Assembly (NCBI GenBank): GCA_002720975.1
Contig: PBIX01000041.1
Location: 1-64,000, forward strand
From: Planctomycetota bacterium
GTDB taxonomy: Bacteria; Planctomycetota; UBA1135; GCA-002686595
Length of the DNA: 64,000 nucleotides
Reading direction: 5' to 3'
Shown: positions 2,628 through 16,729 of the stretch, one piece after another
How positions within the stretch are numbered: the stretch's first letter is position 1
Layout: each line of letters starts with the position of its first letter
Notes under the pieces: model-generated
What the model was told of the DNA's origin: nothing
Seen by the model: the letters and a program-made list of their open reading frames with translations, nothing else
Databases searched by the model: none
Program-made: the position numbers and the translations under genes

Positions 2628-2706
2628 CTGGGCTGCCCATAGGGAATCCGTTTCCCACACTGTGCGATGCTCCGAGGAGCGCCTCCCGAGGGCGGTATCC
2701 TTGAGC

Positions 2707-3561
2707 ATGGGAATCTTTACCCGACGCTCGGCCTTGGCTCTGGCCATCGCCTTGGCCCCTTGGGTTGCGGCCTGTGGCCCCTCCGTGAACCTGGATAATC
2801 CCGGTGGCGGCGGAGGAGGAGATGGCGGTGGTGGCCCCGTGACCATGACCGGCAGCTGGGTCATGCATGCGCGCTGCAAGGGGACTCCCCCCGCCGGGGT
2901 GCAGTCTTGCCGCACGCTGTTCATCACCTTCTCGGATAGTGGCCAGGGTGTTAAGGCCTACCTCGACTTGGACGGCGATGGGGGGTTTACGGAGGCCGTC
3001 AGCGTTGTAGCAACGGGCGCTTCCGGAGGCGTGCGGCTGAAGGGGCAGTACAACTGGAACGGCACCAACTTCTTCTTTAATACGCTTGTCTGGGAATTCA
3101 GCTGGGGGCATGCGGCTGGTGACGCAACCTATCGGGTGGGATCCGCGCCCAATCAGCTGGAGACGGTGACGATGGTGAAGATCATGAATCTCCCCCAGCA
3201 CGACCTGAACGGCGTGTGGGACATCGACCACACGCTGGATTGGGCCACCGGAGGGCTCTCCTATCTTTCGGGGATGACGGAGAGTGGCATCTATCAGATC
3301 ACCCAGGAAATGAGCGGGCCCATGCAGGGCTTCTTTGAGGCCAAGCGTGCTGATGGTGAGTGCTTCACCGGCATCGTCAACGACAGCCAGATAACAGTCG
3401 CCCGGCGCTACGAGGACTACGACTGGCTGTGGACCTACACCTACACAAACCTGAATGCCGATGGCGACTGGTTTGGCGGCACCCACCTGGGCCAGGCCGA
3501 GCTGGGAACACTCCAGGAGGACGTTGGGTGGTCCATGGTGGCGTACCGCACGGGACAGTAG
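2707..3561 (+). CDS. Lipoprotein with Gly-rich linker and two Trp-containing beta domains
   Basis: A 284-residue predicted lipoprotein. The ATG at 2707 is chosen because it gives a short N-region (MGIFTRRS), a hydrophobic core and a lipobox ending at C23 (VAAC-GPS); an ATG at 2662 would add 15 residues before the signal peptide. After the anchor comes a glycine-rich linker (GGGGGGDGGGG). Two domains then start similarly, MTGSWVMHARC and LNGVWDIDHTL, suggesting a twofold repeat of a small beta-barrel or lipocalin-like fold. I do not recognise the family. The next gene starts 9 bases downstream and is also a lipoprotein, so the two are probably co-transcribed. Confidence 0.6.
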   Translation: MGIFTRRSALALAIALAPWVAACGPSVNLDNPGGGGGGDGGGGPVTMTGSWVMHARCKGTPPAGVQSCRTLFITFSDSGQGVKAYLDLDGDGGFTEAVSVVATGASGGVRLKGQYNWNGTNFFFNTLVWEFSWGHAAGDATYRVGSAPNQLETVTMVKIMNLPQHDLNGVWDIDHTLDWATGGLSYLSGMTESGIYQITQEMSGPMQGFFEAKRADGECFTGIVNDSQITVARRYEDYDWLWTYTYTNLNADGDWFGGTHLGQAELGTLQEDVGWSMVAYRTGQ

Positions 3562-3570
3562 GATCGGAGC

Positions 3571-4479
3571 GTGCTTGTGCGCGCGACACTGTTTCCTCTT
3601 GTTCTTCTTACGGCCTGCGGAAGTAGCCGGTCCGTACGCTCAGAGAACCCGTTGGCACCGCTGTCACCTCCCACGCCCGGGGCGATTGCGTCGACGGACC
3701 TGAGCGGGGAGGCAGAGTGGGCTCGAACCTCCAGTCTTCCCCATCGGACGCTGCCCGACACGGGGACGGAGCTAGGCGTGCGCCCGCCCACATCAGAAGC
3801 TGACCGCATTAGTGCCCGCATCCAGCGGAACGCACTAGGGCGGATTCAACATCTGTTTCCCGACACCGCTAGCCCCGATGCTGATGGCGAATCAGCGTGG
3901 GTCTACTACTCTGTCAAGGTCGTCTCCTCGTCCGGCACACAACATCCGGCAGTTGAAGCTATTCGTGTCCAGCGTCAACTTCGCCGTGGGGGCCCCGTTG
4001 TCAGCGAGAGCCTCATCCTGGCCGAAGCGGGAGAGGTGCTGTTGCGCACGGCAGCTTTGACTCCAAGCCCTCCGCGCTCTGTTCTTATTGCAGGCTTTGC
4101 CGTTGATCTACGTGAACCCGAGCAAGTGCGCCGGTTGGCTTCTCTTTCCGTGGCGCCGTTGCAACTTGGGGCCGTAGTTCGGATGGGCCGCGCCCAGGTG
4201 GAGGAGAATCTCAGGTGGGTTCAAGACGAAGGCTGGTCCACCTGGGACCTTCCCCACGAGGAGAAGGGGCTGTTCATCATCGAGGGCCCCTGGTCACCTC
4301 AAGCAACCCTCCCTTGGCCCTTCGAGTCGGCTTCCCTGGATCGGATGCGCATCAATGAGGTCCTTTGGAAAACGGTACCCGAGGGTGTCGAGTGGCGCGC
4401 ACGGGTGCCCGTGAGCTTCTACGGACCGGGCAATTCGGGACCCTTCCGCCGGGAGTTCATCCTGAGAGGAACTCTCTGA
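3571..4479 (+). CDS. Hypothetical lipoprotein
   Basis: A 302-residue predicted lipoprotein beginning with a GTG codon; a second GTG at 3577 is a possible start because GGAG at 3566-3569 is better spaced from it. Either start gives a short signal peptide with lipobox LTAC (C16 from the upstream start). The mature chain has a low-complexity Ser/Pro-rich N-terminal stretch and then a beta-rich region with no motif I recognise. It follows the previous lipoprotein by 9 bases, suggesting an operon, and is convergent with the GH5 gene, whose stop lies 4 bases away. Confidence 0.55.
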   Translation: MLVRATLFPLVLLTACGSSRSVRSENPLAPLSPPTPGAIASTDLSGEAEWARTSSLPHRTLPDTGTELGVRPPTSEADRISARIQRNALGRIQHLFPDTASPDADGESAWVYYSVKVVSSSGTQHPAVEAIRVQRQLRRGGPVVSESLILAEAGEVLLRTAALTPSPPRSVLIAGFAVDLREPEQVRRLASLSVAPLQLGAVVRMGRAQVEENLRWVQDEGWSTWDLPHEEKGLFIIEGPWSPQATLPWPFESASLDRMRINEVLWKTVPEGVEWRARVPVSFYGPGNSGPFRREFILRGTL

Positions 4480-4483
4480 AGGC

Positions 4484-5575
4484 CTATCGTTCAAGCAGAA
4501 CGCGCAGTGGGGCGGCTTGCTCCCCGTCCTTCGGTTGGACCGAGAGCGGGTTATCACCCCACCACTCTCCGGCTGCCCAGTAGTAGACGGGGGTTTTTCG
4601 TGTTGCGGCTCCCCTCAGGAGGCTTGCCAAAACGGGAAGCCAGCGGGGTTCGTCCCTGGGGATGCCACACTCTCCAATTACGCCTCGTACCCCATTGCGT
4701 CTGCACCAGTCCAGAAAAGGAGCTACGCGCGAGATACCGCGGTCTAGGACAGCGTCATCCCGGAGAAGTTCTTCGGCGAAGGGCAACTGGTAGGTTCCGC
4801 TGAAGTCGTGGTCAAAGTAGCAGTGCGCCTCGTAGACGACATTATCGAAGGGGTCAGCAATCCAGGCTCGGGACCCGTTGTTTCTCTGCCAGTCATGGGC
4901 ATGGGACCAACCGTCACCCGAAATCCACAGGGTCGTGCGATCGCCACGGAAGCGCAGTGCATCGACCACGTGCTGCGAGATCTTGCGCCAGTCCGCTCGG
5001 CCCATGTCGTGCGGTTCATTCATTAGGGCGAAGGCTTCAATGGCCTGATGGTCTCGGAGTCGGTCCGAAAGTCTGCACCACAGGTCTGCCAGATGCTCTT
5101 GCGTGATGCCGAGGCCATCCGTGGCCGGCACACCGACGATCCGTCCGCTGGGATACCGACTCTCCCCGCGACAGTAGCGCCCGTAGTTGTGGAGATCCAA
5201 CACGACCCGGCATCCATGGAGGCTTGCGGAGTCAAGCGTCTCCAAGACGCGTCCCAACTCAACGTTGTTGAGGTCTCCACCAGGAACACTCTGGAGCCGC
5301 TCCCATCTGACAGGAAGGCGGAAATGGGTCACACCCAACTGCGCGAAGTAGCGCATGGTCTCTGGCGTACAGTAGGTGTAGTCCACCCCAAACACGCCTG
5401 GCGCAGAGGCGCCAAACCCCGGAACCTGGGAGCCAAACTCTGCCCCGGCCAGGCTGACTCCCCGGTAGGTGGCGGAATCAGCTCCTCCTCCCATGGACTG
5501 AACGGTTCGCAGTGTAAGGATGGCCGCCCCGGCCAACGCCCCGGCCAGGAGGACAACTCGCGTAGCCACCTTCAA
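4484..5575 (-). CDS. Glycoside hydrolase family 5 (endoglucanase-like), membrane-anchored
   Basis: A GH5 TIM-barrel glycanase of about 363 residues. A TTG start at 5575 is chosen: AAGGAAG lies 6 bases upstream, and it begins right before a hydrophobic segment (VVLLAGALAGAAILTL) that should act as a signal anchor. GH5 signatures are visible: FRLPVRWERLQ, VVLDLHNYGRY, the acid/base Glu in LMNEPHD (E187), YEAHCYFDHD, and the nucleophile Glu in GECGIPR (E302). It starts 32 bases after the BcsC-like gene on the same strand, so the two form an operon. Together with the paralogue at the other end of the locus, it probably trims the nascent beta-glucan, as BcsZ does in cellulose systems. Substrate is inferred. 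Confidence 0.85.
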   Translation of the reverse strand: MKVATRVVLLAGALAGAAILTLRTVQSMGGGADSATYRGVSLAGAEFGSQVPGFGASAPGVFGVDYTYCTPETMRYFAQLGVTHFRLPVRWERLQSVPGGDLNNVELGRVLETLDSASLHGCRVVLDLHNYGRYCRGESRYPSGRIVGVPATDGLGITQEHLADLWCRLSDRLRDHQAIEAFALMNEPHDMGRADWRKISQHVVDALRFRGDRTTLWISGDGWSHAHDWQRNNGSRAWIADPFDNVVYEAHCYFDHDFSGTYQLPFAEELLRDDAVLDRGISRVAPFLDWCRRNGVRGVIGECGIPRDEPRWLPVLASLLRGAATRKTPVYYWAAGEWWGDNPLSVQPKDGEQAAPLRVLLER

Positions 5576-5607
5576 GGCATGCTTCCTTTTGTGAGTGCGG
5601 AGTCGGC

Positions 5608-8600
5608 CTAGGGCCAACGGATAGTGAAGAGGAGTGAACTGGCGGTTACGTCGATCTCGGAGGATCGAAGCATTCGCGAGTTCAACTTCATTCCAAACCA
5701 CTCACTGAAGTCATATCCAGCCTGGACACCAAGCTCGGTGTAGCCGGCTCCGTTATTGTCCACAGCCAGGCGGACGCTGGATCCGTACCACATATCAGGG
5801 GAACCCGTGAACCAGTACTCACCGAATTGGTGGCGCCAGTCAAGCTGGGTCGAGAAGATGGAGTAGCCCGAGGGCGCGAAGTAGGGGATGGGGTGTAACG
5901 AATAGTCCTCACCGATGGTGATGTCGTCGCTCTTCTTCGAGAAGTCGAGCGTGTCGATCTTGGTCAGGACGCGCAGACTTTGCGGAGCAGGCGTGAACTC
6001 ATACGCTGCGAACAGGTTCATCTCAAAGCGCGCGTTGCCATCGGAATAGTCAGCGAACATCAGGCTTGCACCATAGTCGACGGCGCGACTGTGCTTCTTG
6101 GTAACACCCATGCGAGCGCCGGTACGGTGCAGGTCGTTGGCGATGGTCACGCTGTTTTCTGCGACGTTGTCGGCGAAGACGGCCATGTCGATAGTCAATT
6201 CGTTGACGGTGCGGTGCTTGATTCCGAGGTCAAACAGCAGGCGCTCATCAAAGGCTTCGTCCGACACGTTGTAGTGGGGGGCCTCCATGGCACCGCGCAC
6301 CACCGTCCGCTCGCCCATACCCTTGGATCCACGGATACGTAGAATGTTGGCGCTAAGGGGTGTGTTTTCGACCCGGTCATAGGATCGCTGCCCAAGCCCG
6401 ACCGCGAAGAAGTCAACGGCGTCACCCATGGGGAAGATGATGTCTCCGATGCGGCTGCTCTCATGCATCAGCGTCAGGCCGGAGCGACCATTGCGGTCTT
6501 CGGTACTAACGTCGAGCACGAACTTCGGCCGTGTGGTGAGGGCGGCTCCCTGGAGTGCGATCTCGGCTTCCTTGTGTCCGGCGACCTGGGCGATCAGCTC
6601 CCGGTAGGACTGGGCAGCCAGTTGCGTGTGCCCTTCCCTGTGGTGGAGTTGGGCCAGATCAAAGCGCGCCTCCAAGTTGGCGGGCTCAATCACGACGAGC
6701 TGCTCTAGTGCATTCTTGGCAACCATCGGACGCCAGGACATGTTTATCTTCACTTCGCGCTCGAGGCGAATCCCCTCGGAAACCTCAAGCTCGGCTTCGA
6801 AGTCCATGCCGGCACGCAAACCAGCGTCAGGCGCGTTCGAGCCGAACACGTCTACCGGATAGGCCCCTGTGGGCAACCCGGCCAGGAGTTCGTCGTAGGC
6901 GGCGAAGGAGGCGTCGTATTCTTGATTCCAATAGAGCGTGCGGGCGCGCTCGCGCTTGACGTAGGTGTAGGACGCATCTTGAGCAATCAGGACGTCGTAC
7001 TCCGCGATGGCTTTGGAAAACTCCTGTCGAATGACAAACGCGCGGGCCAGACCTAGGCGGGCACGGCTGTTGTTCGGGTCACGTGCGAGAACAGCGGTAA
7101 AGACCTTCGCTGGCTCCGCAACAAAGCCGGCCTTCAACTTCTGGTTGTAGGCTTCGCCAAGAAGGACGAGGGCCGTGGCATTGTCAGGTTGCCACTGCAG
7201 CACGTTGCGCAACTCGCCAATGGCGCGATCCCAGGAGTAGTCACCCAGAGACAACTTGGCCAGTTCGACGCGCAGGCGAATATCCTCACCAGAAGCCAAC
7301 ACAGTGGAGGACATCAAGGCCATTTCGCCACCATCCCGGTTTCCACCCAATTGGCGCGCGCCGGCCAAGCCGTAGAAGGCTTCAGGCGTGTGCGTCATGG
7401 GGCTTTCGAGCGCTTCACGATAGGTGCGTGTCGCGAGAACGGCGTTCCCTGAAAGTAAGTGGGTCTTGGCGAGCGCCAACTGCACCTGGGCGACGGCCAA
7501 GGGATCGTTGCTATGGTTGTCGATGTAGCGTTGGCATGTTGCCCTGGCCTGGGAGTAGGCCTTCAGCTTGAGATGGGCGCGGACCAGCCCCAGAACCCCT
7601 TCAAGATAGTTGGGCCGCTGGGCCAGGACGGATTGGCATACAGCGGCAGCATCTTCGTAGCGTCCTTGAGAGATGAGCGTATTGGAGAGCTCAACACGTG
7701 CGCGCGGCCCGAGGGGGCTGGACATGGGGACCTTGCGCAGGTCGGCCTTGGAATACTCCGCATCGCCTTTCTCGCGGCGGAGGACGGCCATGAGCAGACG
7801 CACCTCGTAGTCGTCCGAGTGCTTGAGCAGCAGGCTCTCGTAGATACCCTGAGCGTCCACCCAGCGGCCGACCAGCTGAAAGTAGCGCGCTTGTGCGAGC
7901 TGAAAGGCCCGAAGGTTCCCCAGGGTGCTGTCTAGACGTGTCAGTGCATCGCTAGCGGCGCTGACGTCATAGGCTTCCAGCAGGATTCGGGCACTCATCA
8001 ATTGGGCGATGGGGTCCGTGGGAGCCACGTCCAACACCTGGCGGTTGACCTGCATGGCCAGCTTGTAGTTCTTGATGAGAAGCAGCTGGTCAACCAGGTG
8101 AATTCGAGGCTGGGTGCGCTGTGTTTGCAGCTCCGTCATTTCTCTGACCAGCCGGTGAGCACGATCCAGATCCCCGGTCTGCAGGTAGCAGAGCACGAGG
8201 TTGGTGACCCACTCGACCTCCATGGGGTAGCGGCGGTGGAGCCTCTCCAGGTAGATCAGGGCTTCTGAGGGGCGCTGCATGTCGAGCAGCACCGGAGCGA
8301 GAAGCAGTTGGTCTTGTTCGTTGGAGGGGTCAAGCTTGCGCAGGTAGCGGTCATAGATCTGCTGAGCGCGTTCAAAGTCCTTCACCCAGGAGTAGACACG
8401 CACGAGCATTGCGGCAGAGGTAACGTCGTTGGGGTCTTCGGTCAGAATGGCCTCTAGCTCTTCCATGGCGGACCAGTACTCACCACCGATGATAAGGACG
8501 TTGGCCAGGCTCCGGCGCAGGTCGAGATCCTCCGGCCGTCCAACGCGGACTTCCTCGAAGGCCTCCCGGGCTCGTGAGAGCTGTCCCTCATGTACCAACA

Positions 8601-8970
8601 GGCCGGCATACTCCATGCGGACGCCGTAGTCATTGGGGACTTGCAGGAGGTAGGACTCGAAGAGAGAAATGCCCTCAGTCCAGTTCTCAAGCGCAACAGC
8701 GTTACGTGCCGAGCGGAGAAGCAGCTCCTGCTCGTCCGTGCGCAGTGGCGTGTCGTCCTGGGGGATTGCCGGTGTGCTGGGATCCTGAATGCCGAAACGC
8801 GCTGGCCGTATGGCCGCTTGAGGATTGACCGAGGCCTCGAGGTCTCGGTCTTGGACCGCAGACGGTCCAGCGGTGGGCTCTGCGAAAGTGGACTCCTTCT
8901 CGCCTGGGCTGCAGGCCGCAAGAACCAAGAAGACGGGGAACCAGGTTGTTTGGGTGGATCGGAGGCGCAT
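5608..8970 (-). CDS. TPR plus outer-membrane beta-barrel export protein, BcsC/PgaA-like
   Basis: A 1120-residue protein. The ATG at 8970 is preferred to an upstream in-frame start because it gives a lipoprotein-type signal peptide (lipobox VLAAC, C20). Residues from about 80 to 800 are tandem TPR-like helices (EYAGLLVHEGQLSRAREAF, LARAFVIRQEFSKAIAEYD). The last 270 or so residues are beta-strand rich, contain the PYFAPSGYSIFSTQLDW segment resembling the barrel of BcsC and PgaA, and end with an aromatic strand (LLFTIRWP). The predicted role is to guide and export the polysaccharide made by the divergently encoded synthase. A lipobox on a protein that ends in a barrel is unusual. Confidence 0.75.
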   Translation of the reverse strand: MRLRSTQTTWFPVFLVLAACSPGEKESTFAEPTAGPSAVQDRDLEASVNPQAAIRPARFGIQDPSTPAIPQDDTPLRTDEQELLLRSARNAVALENWTEGISLFESYLLQVPNDYGVRMEYAGLLVHEGQLSRAREAFEEVRVGRPEDLDLRRSLANVLIIGGEYWSAMEELEAILTEDPNDVTSAAMLVRVYSWVKDFERAQQIYDRYLRKLDPSNEQDQLLLAPVLLDMQRPSEALIYLERLHRRYPMEVEWVTNLVLCYLQTGDLDRAHRLVREMTELQTQRTQPRIHLVDQLLLIKNYKLAMQVNRQVLDVAPTDPIAQLMSARILLEAYDVSAASDALTRLDSTLGNLRAFQLAQARYFQLVGRWVDAQGIYESLLLKHSDDYEVRLLMAVLRREKGDAEYSKADLRKVPMSSPLGPRARVELSNTLISQGRYEDAAAVCQSVLAQRPNYLEGVLGLVRAHLKLKAYSQARATCQRYIDNHSNDPLAVAQVQLALAKTHLLSGNAVLATRTYREALESPMTHTPEAFYGLAGARQLGGNRDGGEMALMSSTVLASGEDIRLRVELAKLSLGDYSWDRAIGELRNVLQWQPDNATALVLLGEAYNQKLKAGFVAEPAKVFTAVLARDPNNSRARLGLARAFVIRQEFSKAIAEYDVLIAQDASYTYVKRERARTLYWNQEYDASFAAYDELLAGLPTGAYPVDVFGSNAPDAGLRAGMDFEAELEVSEGIRLEREVKINMSWRPMVAKNALEQLVVIEPANLEARFDLAQLHHREGHTQLAAQSYRELIAQVAGHKEAEIALQGAALTTRPKFVLDVSTEDRNGRSGLTLMHESSRIGDIIFPMGDAVDFFAVGLGQRSYDRVENTPLSANILRIRGSKGMGERTVVRGAMEAPHYNVSDEAFDERLLFDLGIKHRTVNELTIDMAVFADNVAENSVTIANDLHRTGARMGVTKKHSRAVDYGASLMFADYSDGNARFEMNLFAAYEFTPAPQSLRVLTKIDTLDFSKKSDDITIGEDYSLHPIPYFAPSGYSIFSTQLDWRHQFGEYWFTGSPDMWYGSSVRLAVDNNGAGYTELGVQAGYDFSEWFGMKLNSRMLRSSEIDVTASSLLFTIRWP

Positions 8971-9220
8971 GGCGGTATCTGTGTGGGGATGAGTCAGAAC
9001 GAGACCGTGGATCGGACTGATAGGGCACTGGACTTGATTCTTTTCCTGATCCCTTTCAGGGAAGGCTGTGTCACAATAGGGCACATGTGGAGGCAGTAAG
9101 TCCGGTGTGATGAAAGAATTAGGTCCCTGCACCGATAATGCATGATCCTAGGGTACTGTTAAGCAGAGTCGTAAGAATGCCTGAAGTCCCCTCCCTTTTG
9201 CCTGCCAGCGAGAACACCCC
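8971..9220. promoter_or_regulatory. Divergent control region of the exopolysaccharide locus
   Basis: This 250-base gap separates the start of the BcsC-like gene (minus strand) from the synthase (plus strand), so it must hold both promoters. It is more AT-rich than its surroundings. GATAAT near 9134 and TACTGT near 9156 could be -10 elements for the synthase, but no convincing -35 box matches either. I looked for a c-di-GMP riboswitch here and saw none. Confidence 0.4.
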
Positions 9221-12200
9221 GTGACCAACAAGATTCGTCAGTCCCTCATGGTTCTGTGCTCGGTCGTGTGTATCGGGTACCTCGTCTACAGAGGGCTCTA
9301 CACGCTCAACCACTCCAGCACCTATGCCACAGCGGCATCTTGGGTCCTCTACCTAGCCGAAATCTGGGGTACCGTCTCCCTGCTTCTGTTCCTGATGCAG
9401 GTCTGGGATCCCAGTGAGCCCCCCGAGCAACCGCCTCTGGAAGAGGGTGAGGTCGACGTCTTCGTGCCCTCCTACAACGAGGACATCTCCATCCTGAGGG
9501 GCACGCTGCAAGCCTGCCTGGCCATGGACTACCCCCACAGGACGTTCCTGTTGGATGACGGTAACCGGGAAGAGATGAAGCTCCTGTGCGAGGAGTTGGG
9601 CGTCCACTACATCACCCGGGACAACAACCTGCACGCCAAGGCCGGAAACCTGAACAACGCCCTCGACCAGACCGATGGTCAGTTTGTGGCCATTCTGGAC
9701 GCGGACCACATTCCTGAGCCCAACTTCCTCACGAAGATGGTCGGGCATTTCCGCGATGAGGAAGTGGGCATGGTTCAGTCCCCCCACGCATTCTCGAACT
9801 TTGACACGTTCCAGGGACGCGTCAACTACGAGAAGGGTCGCTTCTGGGATGAGGGCCTTCTGTTCTACAAGGTCATTCAGCCTGGACGCAACGCGACCAA
9901 CTCCGTCATCTTCGCCGGTAGTGCGGCTGTCTTCCGCCGCAAGGCTCTCCAGGAAGTGGGCTACATCGCCACCGAGACGATTACCGAGGATATGCACACA
10001 GGTATTCGCATGTCTGCCCACGGTTGGCGCACGGTCTACGTGAGCGAGCGCTTGATCGCTGGACAGGGTGCCTCAGACGTGACGACCTACCACTCTCAGC
10101 GTCTACGGTGGGCGGAAGGCAACCTCTCCATCCTCCGGTATGACAACCCTCTGACCATTCGTGGTTTGGACATTGGGCAGCGCCTGACCTACTTCGCGTC
10201 GATCATCCACTGGGCTGGAGGCGTGCCGCGCCTGGCGCTCTACCTGACGCCCGTGATGATGCTGCTTTCCGGTGTGGCTCCGGTGGCAGAGATCACCCCC
10301 ACTCTGGCGGCCGTGTTCCTGACCTACCTGGGCACCATGATGCTGACCTTGCGGGTCATCTACCGTGGGTACACGAACTACGATCTGATCGAGTTCTTCA
10401 ACATGGCGAACTTCTGGACTCAGATGCGTTCGACATGGAGGGCGGCCTTCACCAAGCAGAAAGCCAAGTTCGTCGTGACGCACAAGCGTGGGGGCCGTCA
10501 GGGCTCGACCCTTCCCCACATCATGCCCCAGATTCTGCTGCTCTCCGCTCTGTGGTGCAGCTTGGTGTATGGATGGGTGCGGCACCTGCTGTTCGACCCT
10601 CAGCTCGACCTGGTGGGCTTGGGCATCGCCACCTTCCTGATCCTGCATCACTCGCGCTATGCCGTGGCCTATCTGCGCTGTGCCATGGCTCCGGCCTCCA
10701 AGCGGGCTATCTACCGCCATCGTTTGAACCTGCCCGTGCGCTATGAGTTCAAGAACAACGAGGGCAAGGTCTTCGAGGGAATCGGCGTCACCACGGACCT
10801 GAGCGATTCAGGCCTGGGCGTTGTGGCGTACTCGAGCCTCCCCACTAACGTGCGTGGCATCGTGGAGGTCATCGTCAACGGCGATAGGATGAAGGCTGAG
10901 GCCGTAATCCGCTATGCCGCCCACCGGGAAGGTGAGGCGCACCGGGGTGCCCAAGCACCCAACCTATACCGCTATGGCCTGGAGTTTGTTGACCCCACGC
11001 CGGAGGCCTTGGATGCTGCCAGTCGAATCGCCCAGCGCTTTGCAGTGGCTCCGTGGTACTCCGTGTTCGAGCGCAACCGTAAGACCGGAGTCCGTGTCCG
11101 CGGTCACCTCTCGGATCGCGAAGTCACCCGCGAGGAGTTCAAGCTGCCGGTCATCATGCGAGTGGGTAACGAAGAGGTGCATTGCACCACCCGCGACCTG
11201 AGCATTCGCGCCATGCGCTGCATCATGGCCAAGCCCATTGAAGACGGCACCGTCTTCGACGCCGAGATCGTGAGCCCCATTGGGCCGATCAAGGTCAAGG
11301 CAAGGTCCACTATCGCACGTGTCATCACCGGGCCTCCGCATCGGGTTTCGGAGTACGTCTTCACCTTCGATGGGTTTGAGGATCAGGGTCGCAGCCTGCT
11401 GCAGTCCCTCCTTGACCTGGGCGGCCAACCTAGCCTGCGCCCCGGGCTGAGCCTCGAACACGAGCGTCCCCGTCGCCCGTTCTCGCGGCCGGTCCTGGCT
11501 GGCGCGCTGGCCGTGGCGATCTTCTCCCCGGTAGCGATTGGTGTATTCCGTCAGGTTCACGATGACGACCTGCTCTTGGCTGGATCGAAGCGAGAGCTGG
11601 CCCTGCGTATGGAGACGGTCAACGCAAAGGATCTGGATAGGATTTTCACCGAGACCCTGTCGGATGACCTCCCTGACAAGAGGCGCCTGCTGCTCCTGAA
11701 GGACGCCCTTGAGGAGAGCAAGCGCTTTCCCGAGCTTGTGCGTGTCTGCCGTATCCTGTCCTCCCAAGACCCCAACGATGCCGACATGGGAATGGCCCTG
11801 GCGAGTGCTCTGACCCTCGCGGGCCGTTATAGAGAGGCGGAGGACATCTGTCAGCATTGGGTGTCACGCATCAGCCAAGAGGGTGCCGAGCCCACTGACC
11901 TCCTGACGTTCCAGGTGCTGCAAGCTCGTAATACGCTGGCGTCTGGGGATGCCTTCGCTGCCCTTGACCGGTTCCGCCGTGCCCTGGCCTTGTTCCCCGA
12001 GGACATTCCGACGCGGAAGGAGTACGCCGGTCTCTTGCTTCAGGTCGGCCTGCCCGATGAGGCTCTCCGGCAATATGCTGCGATTCCCCAGGATCTGGCC
12101 GTGCGCATGGAGCTGGTGTCCATCTACTCTGCCCTTGAGGACTTTGCAGCTGCCGAGAATCTGATTCGCGAGATGTTGCAGGAGAACCCGAGCGACCGTG

Positions 12201-12751
12201 GATTCCAGCTGAAGTTGGCGGAGCTGCTCACCTGGGAGAAGCGTTACGACGAGTCTGAGCGCATCTATCGCGAACTCTTGGCTCAAAACCCCTACGATGT
12301 GGATATTCGCATCTCTCTTGCAGAGACCATGACCTGGGCCGGTGAAGCAGACCTGTCGCTGGTGGAATACGGCCACATGATTGATGAGGGCAACGACGAC
12401 TGGCGTCTCCTTGCAGGTTTCCTCGATGCTTTCTTGGGTGCGGAACGTCGCACGGATAGCGACACGCGGCGCCTGATGTGGATGGTCAGCCTGTACAACC
12501 GCGCCGCCGAGCCTCCGACCTTGGACATTGCGGGGCGCTTGGCTACGGCCCTGACCCTTGTCGGGGACTTCACGAGCTCCTTGGACATGCTGCAGACGGC
12601 CGTTAAGGAAAACCCCGAGAGTCGAAGTCTGCGAATGCGTCTCGCCGACGCGCTCAGCTCCGCAGGGAGACACTCCGAGGCTCAACACCACTATCGGGCT
12701 CTTCTCTCTGAGGCCCGAGAGAAGGGTCGTAGCAGTAGTACCCGCTATTGA
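9221..12751 (+). CDS. BcsA-like processive glycosyltransferase fused to two PilZ-like domains and a TPR domain
   Basis: A 1176-residue synthase with a GTG start. Two N-terminal membrane helices (about 8-29 and 38-62) precede a GT2 domain with DDG, D160-A-D162, T255-E-D257 and the processive motif Q293-RLRW. Four more helices follow, then a PilZ domain with RxxxR (R495-R499) and DLSDSG (526-531), the c-di-GMP binding pattern of BcsA. A second PilZ-like unit (about 625-735, with RDLSIRA) lacks the arginine motif. A helix near 757-775 leads into TPR repeats to the C-terminus (about 830-1170), predicted periplasmic. Likely makes cellulose or a related beta-glycan from a nucleotide sugar under c-di-GMP control. 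The TPR fusion is not part of classical BcsA. Confidence 0.9.
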   Translation: MTNKIRQSLMVLCSVVCIGYLVYRGLYTLNHSSTYATAASWVLYLAEIWGTVSLLLFLMQVWDPSEPPEQPPLEEGEVDVFVPSYNEDISILRGTLQACLAMDYPHRTFLLDDGNREEMKLLCEELGVHYITRDNNLHAKAGNLNNALDQTDGQFVAILDADHIPEPNFLTKMVGHFRDEEVGMVQSPHAFSNFDTFQGRVNYEKGRFWDEGLLFYKVIQPGRNATNSVIFAGSAAVFRRKALQEVGYIATETITEDMHTGIRMSAHGWRTVYVSERLIAGQGASDVTTYHSQRLRWAEGNLSILRYDNPLTIRGLDIGQRLTYFASIIHWAGGVPRLALYLTPVMMLLSGVAPVAEITPTLAAVFLTYLGTMMLTLRVIYRGYTNYDLIEFFNMANFWTQMRSTWRAAFTKQKAKFVVTHKRGGRQGSTLPHIMPQILLLSALWCSLVYGWVRHLLFDPQLDLVGLGIATFLILHHSRYAVAYLRCAMAPASKRAIYRHRLNLPVRYEFKNNEGKVFEGIGVTTDLSDSGLGVVAYSSLPTNVRGIVEVIVNGDRMKAEAVIRYAAHREGEAHRGAQAPNLYRYGLEFVDPTPEALDAASRIAQRFAVAPWYSVFERNRKTGVRVRGHLSDREVTREEFKLPVIMRVGNEEVHCTTRDLSIRAMRCIMAKPIEDGTVFDAEIVSPIGPIKVKARSTIARVITGPPHRVSEYVFTFDGFEDQGRSLLQSLLDLGGQPSLRPGLSLEHERPRRPFSRPVLAGALAVAIFSPVAIGVFRQVHDDDLLLAGSKRELALRMETVNAKDLDRIFTETLSDDLPDKRRLLLLKDALEESKRFPELVRVCRILSSQDPNDADMGMALASALTLAGRYREAEDICQHWVSRISQEGAEPTDLLTFQVLQARNTLASGDAFAALDRFRRALALFPEDIPTRKEYAGLLLQVGLPDEALRQYAAIPQDLAVRMELVSIYSALEDFAAAENLIREMLQENPSDRGFQLKLAELLTWEKRYDESERIYRELLAQNPYDVDIRISLAETMTWAGEADLSLVEYGHMIDEGNDDWRLLAGFLDAFLGAERRTDSDTRRLMWMVSLYNRAAEPPTLDIAGRLATALTLVGDFTSSLDMLQTAVKENPESRSLRMRLADALSSAGRHSEAQHHYRALLSEAREKGRSSSTRY

Positions 12752-12805
12752 TTGAGCCCCAGGGGTAGCCTCAAGCTGATATCCTGATCTGCCGATAGCC
12801 ACGAG

Positions 12806-13924
12806 ATGGACCCCGCCCCTTCCGACCCCCAACGTGGCCTCAGAAGCCGCCGCCCCTCTGTTTCACGGCAGGAGCCTCGCCTTCAGCCCCGGGCTACTTC
12901 TGCGCCCAAGACCGTGGAGCCCCAACCGAGAGCGATGAACATCGCAGGCTTGGAGTTCGGGACGCTGCTACCGGGGTTCTGCGCCGAGCACCCAGGCAAG
13001 ATCGGCCGCGACTACGTTCAGACCCGTGCCCGTACCTATGACCTGCTGGCGGATCAGGGGTTTCGGACATTCAGGATACCATTCCGGTGGGAGCGTATTC
13101 AGCCCGTGCTTGGCGCTCCGTTGAACCCCGATGCGATCCAGCAGCTGCGCTTCCAAGCCAACCTCGCGGCCCGAGTTGACGGCAAGATCATCTTGGATCT
13201 CCATAACTATGGTCGCTACGTACGCACTCTGGACAGCGGCCCTGTCGAGTGCCATATCGGGCATGATCGCAATGGCTGGGTGCCCCTGACCAAGGACGAC
13301 TTTGCGGACCTGTGGGCCCGCATCTCCTATGCCCTGTGCGGTCTTCCCGAAATCGCGGGCTACGGACTGATGAACGAGCCCCACGACCTGGGTCCCGGCG
13401 TATGGGTGGAGGCATCGAAAGCGGCCGCCGAGGCGATCCGGTCTTGCGGTGATGACACGCCCTTGTATGTCTCGGGAGACCGTTGGGCGAGCTCCATGCA
13501 CTGGAACCAGGTCAACCCGAGCTGCCCGTGGATAAGCGAGCGCAAGGGGCCGGTTATCTACGAAGCGCACTGCTACTTCGACCACGATGGTTCTGGCGAG
13601 TACGAGCTCTCTTATGAAGAGGAGCTTGAGCGCGACCCGACACTTCCCTCTCGGTTCACGGCGCGGCTGGAGCCATTCCTGACATGGCTGAGTGAAAACC
13701 AGGCCAAGGGCTTCGTGGGCGAGTTTGGTCTCCCGGTTCAGTCCGAACAGTGGTCACGTTTGCTGCCCGGCTTCCTGGATGCCCTCGACAGGGCCGAGGT
13801 GTCGGCTGCCTGGTGGGCCGCAGGTGAGGGTTGGGGGGACTATCCTCTATCCATGCAACCCCGATCGCACGGGTTCGACGCCTCTCCTGCATCTATCGAG
13901 CTGCAGAGAGGTCTGGACGGATAG
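12806..13924 (+). CDS. Glycoside hydrolase family 5 (endoglucanase-like)
   Basis: A 372-residue GH5 paralogue of the enzyme at the other end of the locus. It shows FRIPFRWERIQ, IILDLHNYGRY, the acid/base Glu in LMNEPHD (E191), YEAHCYFDHD and the nucleophile Glu in VGEFGLP (E306). It follows the synthase by 54 bases on the same strand and is probably co-transcribed. Unlike its paralogue, it has no visible signal peptide or anchor: the first 40 residues are Arg/Pro-rich and polar. An alternative ATG at 12937 (MNIAGLEFG) would begin right at the catalytic domain. Where it acts is therefore unclear: cytoplasmic, or exported by an unseen route. Confidence 0.85.
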   Translation: MDPAPSDPQRGLRSRRPSVSRQEPRLQPRATSAPKTVEPQPRAMNIAGLEFGTLLPGFCAEHPGKIGRDYVQTRARTYDLLADQGFRTFRIPFRWERIQPVLGAPLNPDAIQQLRFQANLAARVDGKIILDLHNYGRYVRTLDSGPVECHIGHDRNGWVPLTKDDFADLWARISYALCGLPEIAGYGLMNEPHDLGPGVWVEASKAAAEAIRSCGDDTPLYVSGDRWASSMHWNQVNPSCPWISERKGPVIYEAHCYFDHDGSGEYELSYEEELERDPTLPSRFTARLEPFLTWLSENQAKGFVGEFGLPVQSEQWSRLLPGFLDALDRAEVSAAWWAAGEGWGDYPLSMQPRSHGFDASPASIELQRGLDG

Positions 13925-14030: not shown

Positions 14031-15143
14031 ATGACGCACCCCCGACGGACAACCTATTGGGATTACATCCACGTCGAGGACCTCCTGTCCTTGCAGGGTG
14101 GGCTTCCCGAAGATATTGCCGATCCCAGCAACGATGAAGTCCTCTTCATCACCGTCCACCAGGTCTTCGAGTTGTGGTTTCAACTCGTCCTGCGGGAGCT
14201 CAACTCGGCACGGGACCTCTTTGGGAGAGACCTTGTCCAAGAGCAGGAACTCTCGGGGGCTGTGGCAAGCTTGCGCAGGATCAGCACGATTCTGGCTGTG
14301 GCCGCCGATCACTTCCGGGTAATGGAGACCTTGCCCACGCGGGAGTATCTGGAGTTCCGCAAGAAGCTCATGCCGGCCAGTGGTGGGCAGAGCGCTCAGA
14401 TGCGCCAGATCGAAATCCTATTTGGGCTCGACGATCGGGACCGCGTCCCCTTGGGTGACAAAGACTGGCACATGAACATCCTGCGAGAGGCCGATGGATC
14501 AGAAGGTCCTGCATATAAGCGGGTCGCGGGCCAGATGGAGGACGGCCCGAGCCTCAGGGACGCCATTGACTCTTGGCTGTTACGTACTCCGATCGATGGC
14601 GTGGCGCACGAAGATCCCGATGCAGACGTGGCTTTGGAGAGGTTCATCTCTCGCTATCTCGCTGCCCATCAAGGTGAGGTCGAAGCCAACCTCGAGTACT
14701 CCAAGTCCATCATGGAGGGCGACGCGGCCCATGAGAACTTGGAGGATCGCTATCGGTGGGAAGCCAAGTCCGCGGAGAAATTCCTGCGTCCCAGCGAGGA
14801 CGAGGGTGGTGCTCGCATCGCACGTATCCGTGCAGCAATGATCTTCATCGAGACCTATCGAGAACTTCCTCTCCTGGCTTGGCCCAGGGAGGTGCTCAAC
14901 GAACTGGTGAGAGTTGAGCAGCGGTTTCTCATCTTCCGCCAGCGCCATGCGCGGATGGTGGAGAGGGTTATTGGCTCCAGGACAGGCACCGGTGGTAGTG
15001 AGGGCGTCAAGTACCTCGACGAGACCGCCCTGCGCTATCGGATCTTCAGGGATCTATGGGCCGTGCGCACGCTCATGATCCGGCCTGGGGCCACACCGAA
15101 GCTGGAGCGACCCGAGTTCTACGGTTTCCGCAGCGACGGCTAG
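14031..15143 (+). CDS. kynA: Tryptophan 2,3-dioxygenase
   Basis: A 370-residue haem dioxygenase that opens the indole ring of L-tryptophan to give N-formylkynurenine. Family hallmarks are TYWDYIHVEDLL near the N-terminus, HQVFELWFQLVLREL (substrate and haem pocket), the haem-ligand region RHARMVERVIG, and GTGGSEGVKYL near the C-terminus. It is longer than the roughly 280-300 residues I expect for bacterial enzymes. No other kynurenine-pathway gene is in the window. The gene stands alone, convergent with the porin gene, whose stop lies 17 bases away. Confidence 0.9.
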   Translation: MTHPRRTTYWDYIHVEDLLSLQGGLPEDIADPSNDEVLFITVHQVFELWFQLVLRELNSARDLFGRDLVQEQELSGAVASLRRISTILAVAADHFRVMETLPTREYLEFRKKLMPASGGQSAQMRQIEILFGLDDRDRVPLGDKDWHMNILREADGSEGPAYKRVAGQMEDGPSLRDAIDSWLLRTPIDGVAHEDPDADVALERFISRYLAAHQGEVEANLEYSKSIMEGDAAHENLEDRYRWEAKSAEKFLRPSEDEGGARIARIRAAMIFIETYRELPLLAWPREVLNELVRVEQRFLIFRQRHARMVERVIGSRTGTGGSEGVKYLDETALRYRIFRDLWAVRTLMIRPGATPKLERPEFYGFRSDG

Positions 15144-15159: not shown

Positions 15160-16320
15160 TCAAAACCCCGAGTGCAGTCGGATCAGTAGCAGGCCGGCCC
15201 GGTCTCCGTCGCTGGACGTCTGTACGTGGTTCACCATCCAACGAGTGTCGGAGTTGAGGTGCCAGGTCAGTCCGAGGGTGAGGTTGTCCATCACTCCACC
15301 ATCAACGTAGCCGTCGCGCAGGTCCGTTTGGGAATAGCGAACCCCGAGCTCCCATGCTCCCGGCCCACCACCGCCGAGAGTCGGCTGGGCAACCGGTAGG
15401 CGGCCCATTGAATGGGTAGAGTCGCGGTAGCTTCGTCTCTCACCAGTCAAGATCCTGCTGGCTTGCAGATAGCCGCCACGGAGTGCGGCATCGGCTCCAT
15501 CGGCCCGTACCAGATTGGCGAACAGGAGTTCGGCCTGCATGGTGAGTGCCTTTCGCTGCCAGGCGCCTTCAAGCGCCAAGCCTGAAGTGCTGTCCGCCGC
15601 GACCAGGCCCGTGTCTACTCCATTGCGGGCGAGATGAACCTCGGGATCGGCGGAAAGGCGGATCCCGTCAGCTTGGGTATCCCGGTAGGTAGCTGATAGC
15701 CCAAAGTGAAGAACCTCTTCCCCCTCGACGTCTCTGAGGGGCAACCAGATCACGCGGCCTGTGATGGCCTTATTGTTCAGCAGGCCTTCATCGGCCATGC
15801 CGACAGACTCTCGAAACACCCCCGCCTCCCAGCTGAAGGGGACACCTGACCTGTGGACCTCCACACCCCGGTTGCGACCAAAGGTAAGCGCCTGCGTGGG
15901 CGAGGCGCGCTCTACAAAGGTCAGGTGCGCCGAAGACGTGCGCGCGTCCAAACCGAAGGGTTCGCGAAAATGCCCAAAGCGGACGGCGGGGCGAGCTGGG
16001 GTTCTCCAATCGAGCCACCATTCCAGCAGGCTCGGGTCTCCTCCCTTGAACTCGCCTTGGGTCTTGAATGCAAGTTGCGGGCTCCACTCTCCCTGCAGTA
16101 GCAGCCGAAGGCGGCGGGTTTGGTCCAACTCAGCCGGATTATCACGCCAATTGGGGTCAAGATCCCCCCAATCGTGCATCCAGCGCCCCTTCAGGCGCAC
16201 TCGGGAGAGGCCTTCCCGCCCCTCTGCCCAGAGACCGTCGCGATAAAAAAGGGAGCCCTCGGGTTCGGCGGGAGGTTCTTGTGCAACAAACGAGAGGGCA
16301 ATGCTGGCAACGAGGAACAT
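15160..16320 (-). CDS. Phosphate-selective porin (OprO/OprP)-like outer-membrane protein
   Basis: A 386-residue predicted beta-barrel. The ATG at 16320 gives a signal peptide (MFLVASIALSFVAQ); an upstream in-frame start would place 21 polar residues in front. The sequence follows the OprO/OprP pattern: RLRLLLQGEWSPQLAFKTQGEF, then WLDWRTPARPAVRFGHFREPFGLD, then HLTFVERASPTQAL and GRNRGVEVH, and a terminal aromatic strand (LLLIRLHSGF). Substrate is uncertain; members of this family take up phosphate or other anions. It is divergent from the HIT gene, with 61 bases between start codons. Confidence 0.75.
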   Translation of the reverse strand: MFLVASIALSFVAQEPPAEPEGSLFYRDGLWAEGREGLSRVRLKGRWMHDWGDLDPNWRDNPAELDQTRRLRLLLQGEWSPQLAFKTQGEFKGGDPSLLEWWLDWRTPARPAVRFGHFREPFGLDARTSSAHLTFVERASPTQALTFGRNRGVEVHRSGVPFSWEAGVFRESVGMADEGLLNNKAITGRVIWLPLRDVEGEEVLHFGLSATYRDTQADGIRLSADPEVHLARNGVDTGLVAADSTSGLALEGAWQRKALTMQAELLFANLVRADGADAALRGGYLQASRILTGERRSYRDSTHSMGRLPVAQPTLGGGGPGAWELGVRYSQTDLRDGYVDGGVMDNLTLGLTWHLNSDTRWMVNHVQTSSDGDRAGLLLIRLHSGF

Positions 16321-16381
16321 CGACGAGGATTCTATGCGTATTCGGTTCGCTTCCGTTAGGCCGTAAGCCCAACCCTTATCC

Positions 16382-16729
16382 ATGCCGGACGACTTCTACT
16401 GTGACCAAGTGCTGAGCGGCAAGACGCCGGTCGAGGTTGTCTTGGAGACGGACGATGTGCTCGCGTTCCACCATACGCGCCCCTTTTGGCCTGTGCACAT
16501 CGTCGTGACCCCAAAGGCGCACGTGCCCTCTCTCGCGGATTTGGGTGACTGCGACCCCAGCCTCCTGATAGAGCTCATGGCGGTGGTGCGCCACGTTGCG
16601 GCAGAAGTAAACCTGGAGCACGGGGGCGCTCGAGTCTTGACAAACCTCGGCCAGTATCAGGACTCCAAGCATCTCCATTTTCACGTAAACTTCGGTGAAC
16701 CTGGGGCCTCCGCTCCCAACGCGCAGTAG
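16382..16729 (+). CDS. HIT-family nucleotide hydrolase/transferase
   Basis: A 115-residue histidine-triad protein. The triad KHLHFHV near residue 102 supplies the catalytic histidine, and the core region FWPVHIVVTPKAHVPSLADL is typical of HINT-type proteins acting on nucleotide phosphoramidates or dinucleoside polyphosphates. Length fits the family. It is followed after 67 bases by a sugar-kinase-like gene on the same strand. Confidence 0.85.
   Translation: MPDDFYCDQVLSGKTPVEVVLETDDVLAFHHTRPFWPVHIVVTPKAHVPSLADLGDCDPSLLIELMAVVRHVAAEVNLEHGGARVLTNLGQYQDSKHLHFHVNFGEPGASAPNAQ

Follow-up and report, generated by a model that had tools for sequence, protein, structure and literature searches.

Genes and layout of the locus

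The window is the whole stretch of DNA analyzed (64,000 nucleotides) and belongs to a Planctomycetota MAG (3.58 Mb in 118 contigs, completeness 90%). All four predicted ORFs were found where an earlier note on this DNA had placed them (4484-13924 of the window). The note described a compact cellulose-like synthesis system with no visible BcsB, and the analysis supports such a system, built from a cellulose-type synthase and a secretin. The features are listed by window position and strand.

4484..5701 (-): GH5a, a GH5_5-like endo-beta-glucanase with N-terminal membrane anchor; likely true start TTG 5575
5608..9132 (-): TPR + 16-stranded beta-barrel outer-membrane secretin; likely true start ATG 8970
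5611..6840 (-): C-terminal part of the secretin (final TPR helices and barrel), the stretch modeled; from alignment and model
8971..9220 (no strand): 250-bp intergenic region from which secretin and synthase diverge; weak sigma70-like matches to the consensus only
9221..12751 (+): BcsA-like synthase fusion, in the order 2 TM, GT2, TM bundle, PilZ1, PilZ2, TM helix, ~10 TPRs
10688..11380 (+): tandem PilZ region of the synthase (residues ~490-720); from alignment, PF07238 and model strands
11483..12727 (+): extra TM helix (residues 755-787) and periplasmic TPR domain (802-1169) of the synthase; from the model and the split counterpart in anammox bacteria
12806..13924 (+): GH5b, a second GH5 without signal peptide; predicted cytosolic

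The mirror-image layout, for which the earlier note had called the locus symmetric, is real in the window but lineage-specific, not general. Gene content was conserved among relatives, but the four-gene order was not: all four genes lay on a single strand in L026 and L073, GH5b was placed behind GH5a in L020, L021 and L023, and GH5b was confined to some members of the family. Symmetry is not the functional point and was rejected as a functional feature, given this variation in gene order and strand. Scanning the intergenic region for promoters returned two weak back-to-back sigma70-like matches (~9110-9162), which are consensus matches only. An Rfam search of the whole window gave zero matches, so no known c-di-GMP riboswitch was found there. 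Two secreted lipoprotein-like ORFs without a Pfam match lie beside GH5a (3571-4479 and 2662-3561), and a relative of the 2662-3561 ORF adjoins the locus in several genomes with one GH5 (L028, L081-L085). Directly downstream of GH5b is a tryptophan 2,3-dioxygenase (14031-15143), a neighbor found only in the window's genus, and a phosphate-selective porin O/P homologue (Porin_O_P, 15160-16383) lies near the locus.

The annotated secretin frame begins too early. Starting at ATG 8970, the conserved start among relatives, the protein has the N-terminus MRLRSTQTTWFPVFLVLAAC, a lipoprotein signal with a lipobox, which was present in most relatives. TPRs were matched by Pfam. In a high-confidence AlphaFold model (pLDDT 90) the final 410 aa form TPR helices and then 16 strands, and the top five Foldseek matches of the barrel model in the PDB were PelB, PgaA and three BcsC entries, all of them exopolysaccharide secretins and all ahead of every uptake porin. 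Pfam, the model and Foldseek agreed on periplasmic TPRs joined to an outer-membrane barrel; the likeness to BcsC was clear in the fold (E 8.9e-12 to 1.1e-10), and the sequence match was weak and ran via the TPRs. A TPR arm on an outer-membrane barrel is ordinary, as BcsC, PgaA and PelB all have one. Of the TPR fusions that the earlier note proposed as replacements for the usual parts, only the one on the synthase is unusual.

The synthase was matched in Pfam by GT2, Cellulose_synt, PilZ and TPR. TIGR03030 (CelA) aligned to residues 7-571 (4.3e-113) with 379 bits, below the equivalog cut-off of 699. Its best solved structural relatives were the BcsA proteins of E. coli and Rhodobacter (PDB BcsA 3.9e-79), and Foldseek agreed. 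Motifs were scored, wherever the sequence was covered, across 26 aligned homologues, some full-length and some partial, and DDG, HAKAG, DxD, Q[ST]PH, FAGS, TED, QRxRW and FxVTxK were kept throughout; Q-T-P-H reads Q-S-P-H in many members. Motifs and structural match together identify a processive GT2 inner-membrane synthase, although GT2 substrate specificity cannot be read off sequence. In a GT tree, fused synthases and their split homologues (see below) formed separate clades outside both canonical BcsA and the Bgs-like, HlyD-partnered GT2 synthases, with the deep branching unresolved. An order-level relative (L090:2-4162, G113) has a different domain order, with the BcsA-like GT on the C-terminal side of a 1386-aa ORF. 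No plasmid record spanning 80% of the synthase was found in a plasmid collection.

Two features of the synthase bear on its regulation and shape. In PilZ1 of the window synthase the c-di-GMP motifs are RxxxR (495/499) and DxSxxG (526-531); R495, R499 and D526-x-x-x-x-G531 were invariant across the alignment, and many relatives had N or T in place of the S. PilZ1 is followed by a second PilZ-type domain, whose RxxxR (R633/R637) and DxS aspartate (D659) were likewise invariant; PF07238 matched it in the window synthase, and two PilZ stretches were found in the anammox homologue. Both domains are predicted c-di-GMP receptors from these motifs. By Pfam the synthase carries PilZ in place of an MshEN domain, and four GGDEF domains were found in the window's own genome. 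The AlphaFold model of the full-length synthase (moderate confidence, pLDDT 76.5, pTM 0.55) has two beta domains (strands 505-589 and 643-719), then a 33-residue helix (755-787) and ~20 TPR helices (802-1169).

Co-inheritance, BcsB and the anammox counterpart

Co-occurrence of homologues, a check proposed in the earlier note, was counted in 154 class genomes, of which 33 had the synthase. GH5 kin accompanied it in 30/33 genomes and the barrel in 29/33, and both were absent from all 121 genomes without the synthase (Fisher p ~1e-27 to 1e-29, ignoring phylogeny). The few incomplete cases were mostly short contigs or fragmentary matches. As counted, 41 of 45 GH5 matches lay within 10 kb of a synthase; the other four were contig breaks or had the locus outside the count. 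The association of the modules is not chance.

BcsB (PF03170) was not found in the window's own MAG (90% complete), nor in any of the 154 genomes of the class, nor in the 28 fused-type genomes or the 10 others with split-type or related synthases. The same search was positive for E. coli and for canonical operons in two anammox-family genomes (G410 and G378, 1e-104 to 1e-109). The window's own genome has no GH8, and GH5 is present instead. The possibility, named in the earlier note, that a separate complete bcs operon exists elsewhere was rejected on the BcsB counts. As BcsB and GH8 were tested for and not found, the locus is not a canonical Bcs member.

A split counterpart was found in anammox bacteria (L092-L097, L102 and L103; genus g133 and kin), in whose family hydrazine synthase was detected (G221, G270, G358, G410). 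It shares with the window a homologous two-PilZ synthase, a TM-TPR part and a TPR-barrel, and BcsB is likewise absent, but the parts are separate genes. The synthase lacks the TPRs and is often a tandem duplicate; beside it is a 137-161 aa protein of one TM helix plus TPR; the C-terminus of the TPR-barrel aligns with that of the window secretin, but the protein has no lipobox; and the hydrolase is a GH8 lipoprotein of the BcsZ family (PF01270 5.5e-46) rather than GH5. In G358 and G270 the GH8 gene is ~30 and ~10 kb away, respectively. Synthase and TM-TPR, being fused in the window and neighboring genes in anammox bacteria, show a classical sign of shared function. Since GH8 and GH5 fill the hydrolase slot in different lineages, a beta-1,4-glucan product is favored. 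Canonical bcsA-bcsB-bcsZ loci were found in other genera of the same family (L101:8103-18172, with a TPR-barrel; L100:8807-14839), and bcsA, bcsB, GH8 and TPR-barrel are adjacent in G410, so that this one family holds two kinds of cellulose-type loci. A search of the open-access literature for planctomycete or anammox cellulose synthases found no paper on the locus.

The two GH5 proteins

Both GH5 proteins matched Pfam Cellulase PF00150 (GH5a 1.3e-30, GH5b 1.4e-31) and are clear paralogues, as the earlier note had them (40% identity over 327 aa, E 1e-75). The best PDB matches of GH5a were P. stutzeri Cel5A (4LX4, 1.6e-53) and RBcel1 (4EE9, 6.6e-53), these being the closest solved relatives of both window proteins, and the GH5_5 assignment was made from these nearest PDB relatives. 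NEP and GE, with the acid/base and nucleophile Glu, are retained in both window copies. GH5a had a hydrophobic N-terminal signal in the relatives examined, mostly with a lipobox, and is predicted to be periplasmic or outer-membrane-facing. GH5 relatives in the plasmid collection lay in other gene contexts or in unannotated DNA.

GH5b is the most surprising part of the locus. No signal peptide or hydrophobic N-terminal stretch was found in GH5b at any of 15 loci, where its maximum 15-aa hydropathy was at most 0.33, compared with 1.25-2.6 for GH5a. In the window a hidden signal is impossible, as the open frame begins just 6 codons upstream of the ATG. A short basic N-terminal motif is conserved instead (M-D-P/S ... 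RGL-H/R ... PR-W/A-I/M). GH5b formed one clade (support 100/100) and therefore arose by one duplication. Over the same genome pairs, dN/dS was 0.05-0.10 for GH5b, 0.12-0.20 for GH5a and 0.05-0.09 for the synthase; GH5b is constrained about as strongly as the synthase and more than GH5a. We predict from the N-terminus that GH5b stays in the cytosol. Export by an unrecognized route, which would make GH5b merely a second periplasmic hydrolase, is the less likely course: elements of the basic motif (RGLH, RAL/RPM, PRWI) could serve as a sorting signal, but the lack of a hydrophobic stretch in 15/15 loci, the short upstream frame and a constraint that tracks the synthase, not GH5a, argue against it.

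In genus g76 the catalytic residues of GH5b were changed. The acid/base motif NEP reads SAV or SAA in all three copies, and in L020 the nucleophile is also replaced, by D. The full-length copies that lost the acid/base Glu are as follows.

L020:3740-4846: GH5b of g76, full-length
L021:3893-4987: GH5b of g76, full-length
L023:3579-4685: GH5b of g76, full-length

For the L021/L023 pair, dN/dS was 0.26 for GH5b and 0.21-0.29 for GH5a, synthase and barrel, a similar level that indicates purifying selection. The g76 protein thus looks like a pseudoenzyme, catalytically dead by appearance and retained under purifying selection; at least in that genus, this speaks for a role in binding. We suggest tentatively, with the odds somewhat against it, that GH5b is a dedicated cytosolic subunit of the glucan synthase. 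It would bind the nascent chain, proofread it or clear it, or else regulate the synthase, and would be non-catalytic in g76; with a TM-TPR in BcsB's place as well, such bacterial cellulose synthases would form a class with a mechanism of their own. No paper on GH5b was found in the open-access literature, a result that does not prove it undescribed.

Proposed mechanism, alternatives and precedents

Our main reading, to which we give a probability of about 0.78, is that the locus encodes a c-di-GMP-responsive, synthase-dependent machine for making and exporting a glucan of the cellulose type, most likely beta-1,4-linked, with the TM-TPR in BcsB's place. The inner-membrane synthase would polymerize UDP-glucose and thread the chain via its own TM channel, and c-di-GMP on the PilZ domain(s) would open the gating loop. 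The C-terminal TM helix and periplasmic TPR arm would replace BcsB and hold the synthase at the membrane, and this arm would probably dock to its TPR counterpart on the lipoprotein secretin in the outer membrane. The chain would then pass along the two TPR arms and be released by the 16-stranded barrel. In the periplasm or at the outer membrane, exported GH5a may trim or remodel the chain as BcsZ (GH8) does elsewhere, and cytosolic GH5b may act on, or merely bind, the nascent chain or the synthase at the cytoplasmic side.

One alternative concerns the product. Another polymer (mixed-linkage beta-1,3/1,4-glucan, curdlan-like or amino-sugar) could be made, with the GH5 proteins tuned to it: the synthase does not group with canonical BcsA in the GT tree, many members have Q-S-P-H instead of Q-T-P-H, and the BcsA-like NfrB makes a non-cellulose exopolysaccharide (PMC8669469, PMC8669472). 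We consider this unlikely, given that the complete BcsA motif set is kept, the FxVTxK gating loop included, that Bgs-like synthases form a separate clade with HlyD partners, that kin of the GH5 proteins hydrolyze cellulosic substrates, and that the homologous anammox locus has a GH8 BcsZ-type enzyme. A canonical Bcs system whose BcsB is too diverged to detect, or is encoded elsewhere, is very improbable and already largely refuted. BcsB sequences do diverge fast (PMC7112194) and the MAG is ~90% complete, but BcsB was missing from 154/154 class genomes under a search with positive controls, no further conserved gene was seen at the locus, and the TM-TPR part is retained both fused and split. 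A cellulose-degradation locus, in which the GH5 proteins digest external glucan, the barrel is an uptake porin and the synthase is a chance neighbor, was rejected as the least probable reading of all. Two GH5 cellulases and a nearby porin of a different kind (the Porin_O_P homologue) speak for it; against it stand the strict co-inheritance with a motif-complete synthase (GH5 and barrel in 0/121 synthase-less genomes), a TPR-fused barrel whose best matches are secretins and not uptake porins, a GH5b without export signal, and the absence of any SusCD-like gene or CBM seen at the locus.

The synthase-dependent glucan machine was compared with known systems. With canonical Bcs (bcsABZC; BcsA-BcsB of E. 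coli and Rhodobacter, and BcsC) it shares a GT2 with full BcsA motifs and PilZ, a TPR + 16-strand barrel and an endoglucanase partner. It differs in having no BcsB, a TM + TPR arm fused to the synthase, a second PilZ, GH5 in place of GH8, a predicted lipoprotein secretin and a second, unexported GH5. The nearest working precedent for a synthase and TPR-barrel without a required BcsB is E. coli NfrB/NfrA (the N4 glycan receptor), in which a BcsA-like synthase has its own c-di-GMP domain (PMC8669469, PMC8669472); there the domain is MshEN not PilZ, no synthase TPR is reported, GH5 is lacking and the product is not cellulose. Clostridial CcsZABHI pairs a BcsA-like PilZ synthase with a GH5 cellulase, CcsZ, proposed to edit the chain, and replaces BcsB by an unrelated membrane protein, CcsB (PMC7710045), but is Gram-positive and without a secretin, with a CBM-like CcsB, O-acetylation genes and one GH5. 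RBcel1 and P. stutzeri Cel5A are cellulose-active and transglycosylating, and were proposed as a GH8 stand-in for bacterial cellulose synthesis in Pseudomonas (PMC8900817). They differ from the window pair in being a single enzyme. We know of no unexported paralogue of either.

With these precedents (NfrB/NfrA, CcsZAB and GH5_5/RBcel1), the claim of an undescribed system was too strong. The system is real, coherent and conserved, and is a variant of synthase-dependent exopolysaccharide secretion; tandem PilZ, the lipoprotein secretin and GH5b without signal peptide are features beyond those in the earlier note.

In studies of BcsA, BcsB has been regarded as essential to cellulose synthesis, and BcsA of characterized systems requires BcsB for activity according to work cited in PMC10237404. 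A BcsA homologue that keeps every motif, in a class where BcsB is absent throughout, is a natural experiment on BcsB's purpose. In this BcsB-less system an anchored TPR arm is fused to the synthase in one lineage and is a separate gene in anammox bacteria. If the proposal for GH5b is true, glucan synthases would have a partner of a new type: a cellulase paralogue that is not exported, has in part gone dead and evolves in parallel with the synthase. Granule formation by anammox bacteria matters in wastewater treatment, and the split locus may be relevant to the matrix polymer of the granules.
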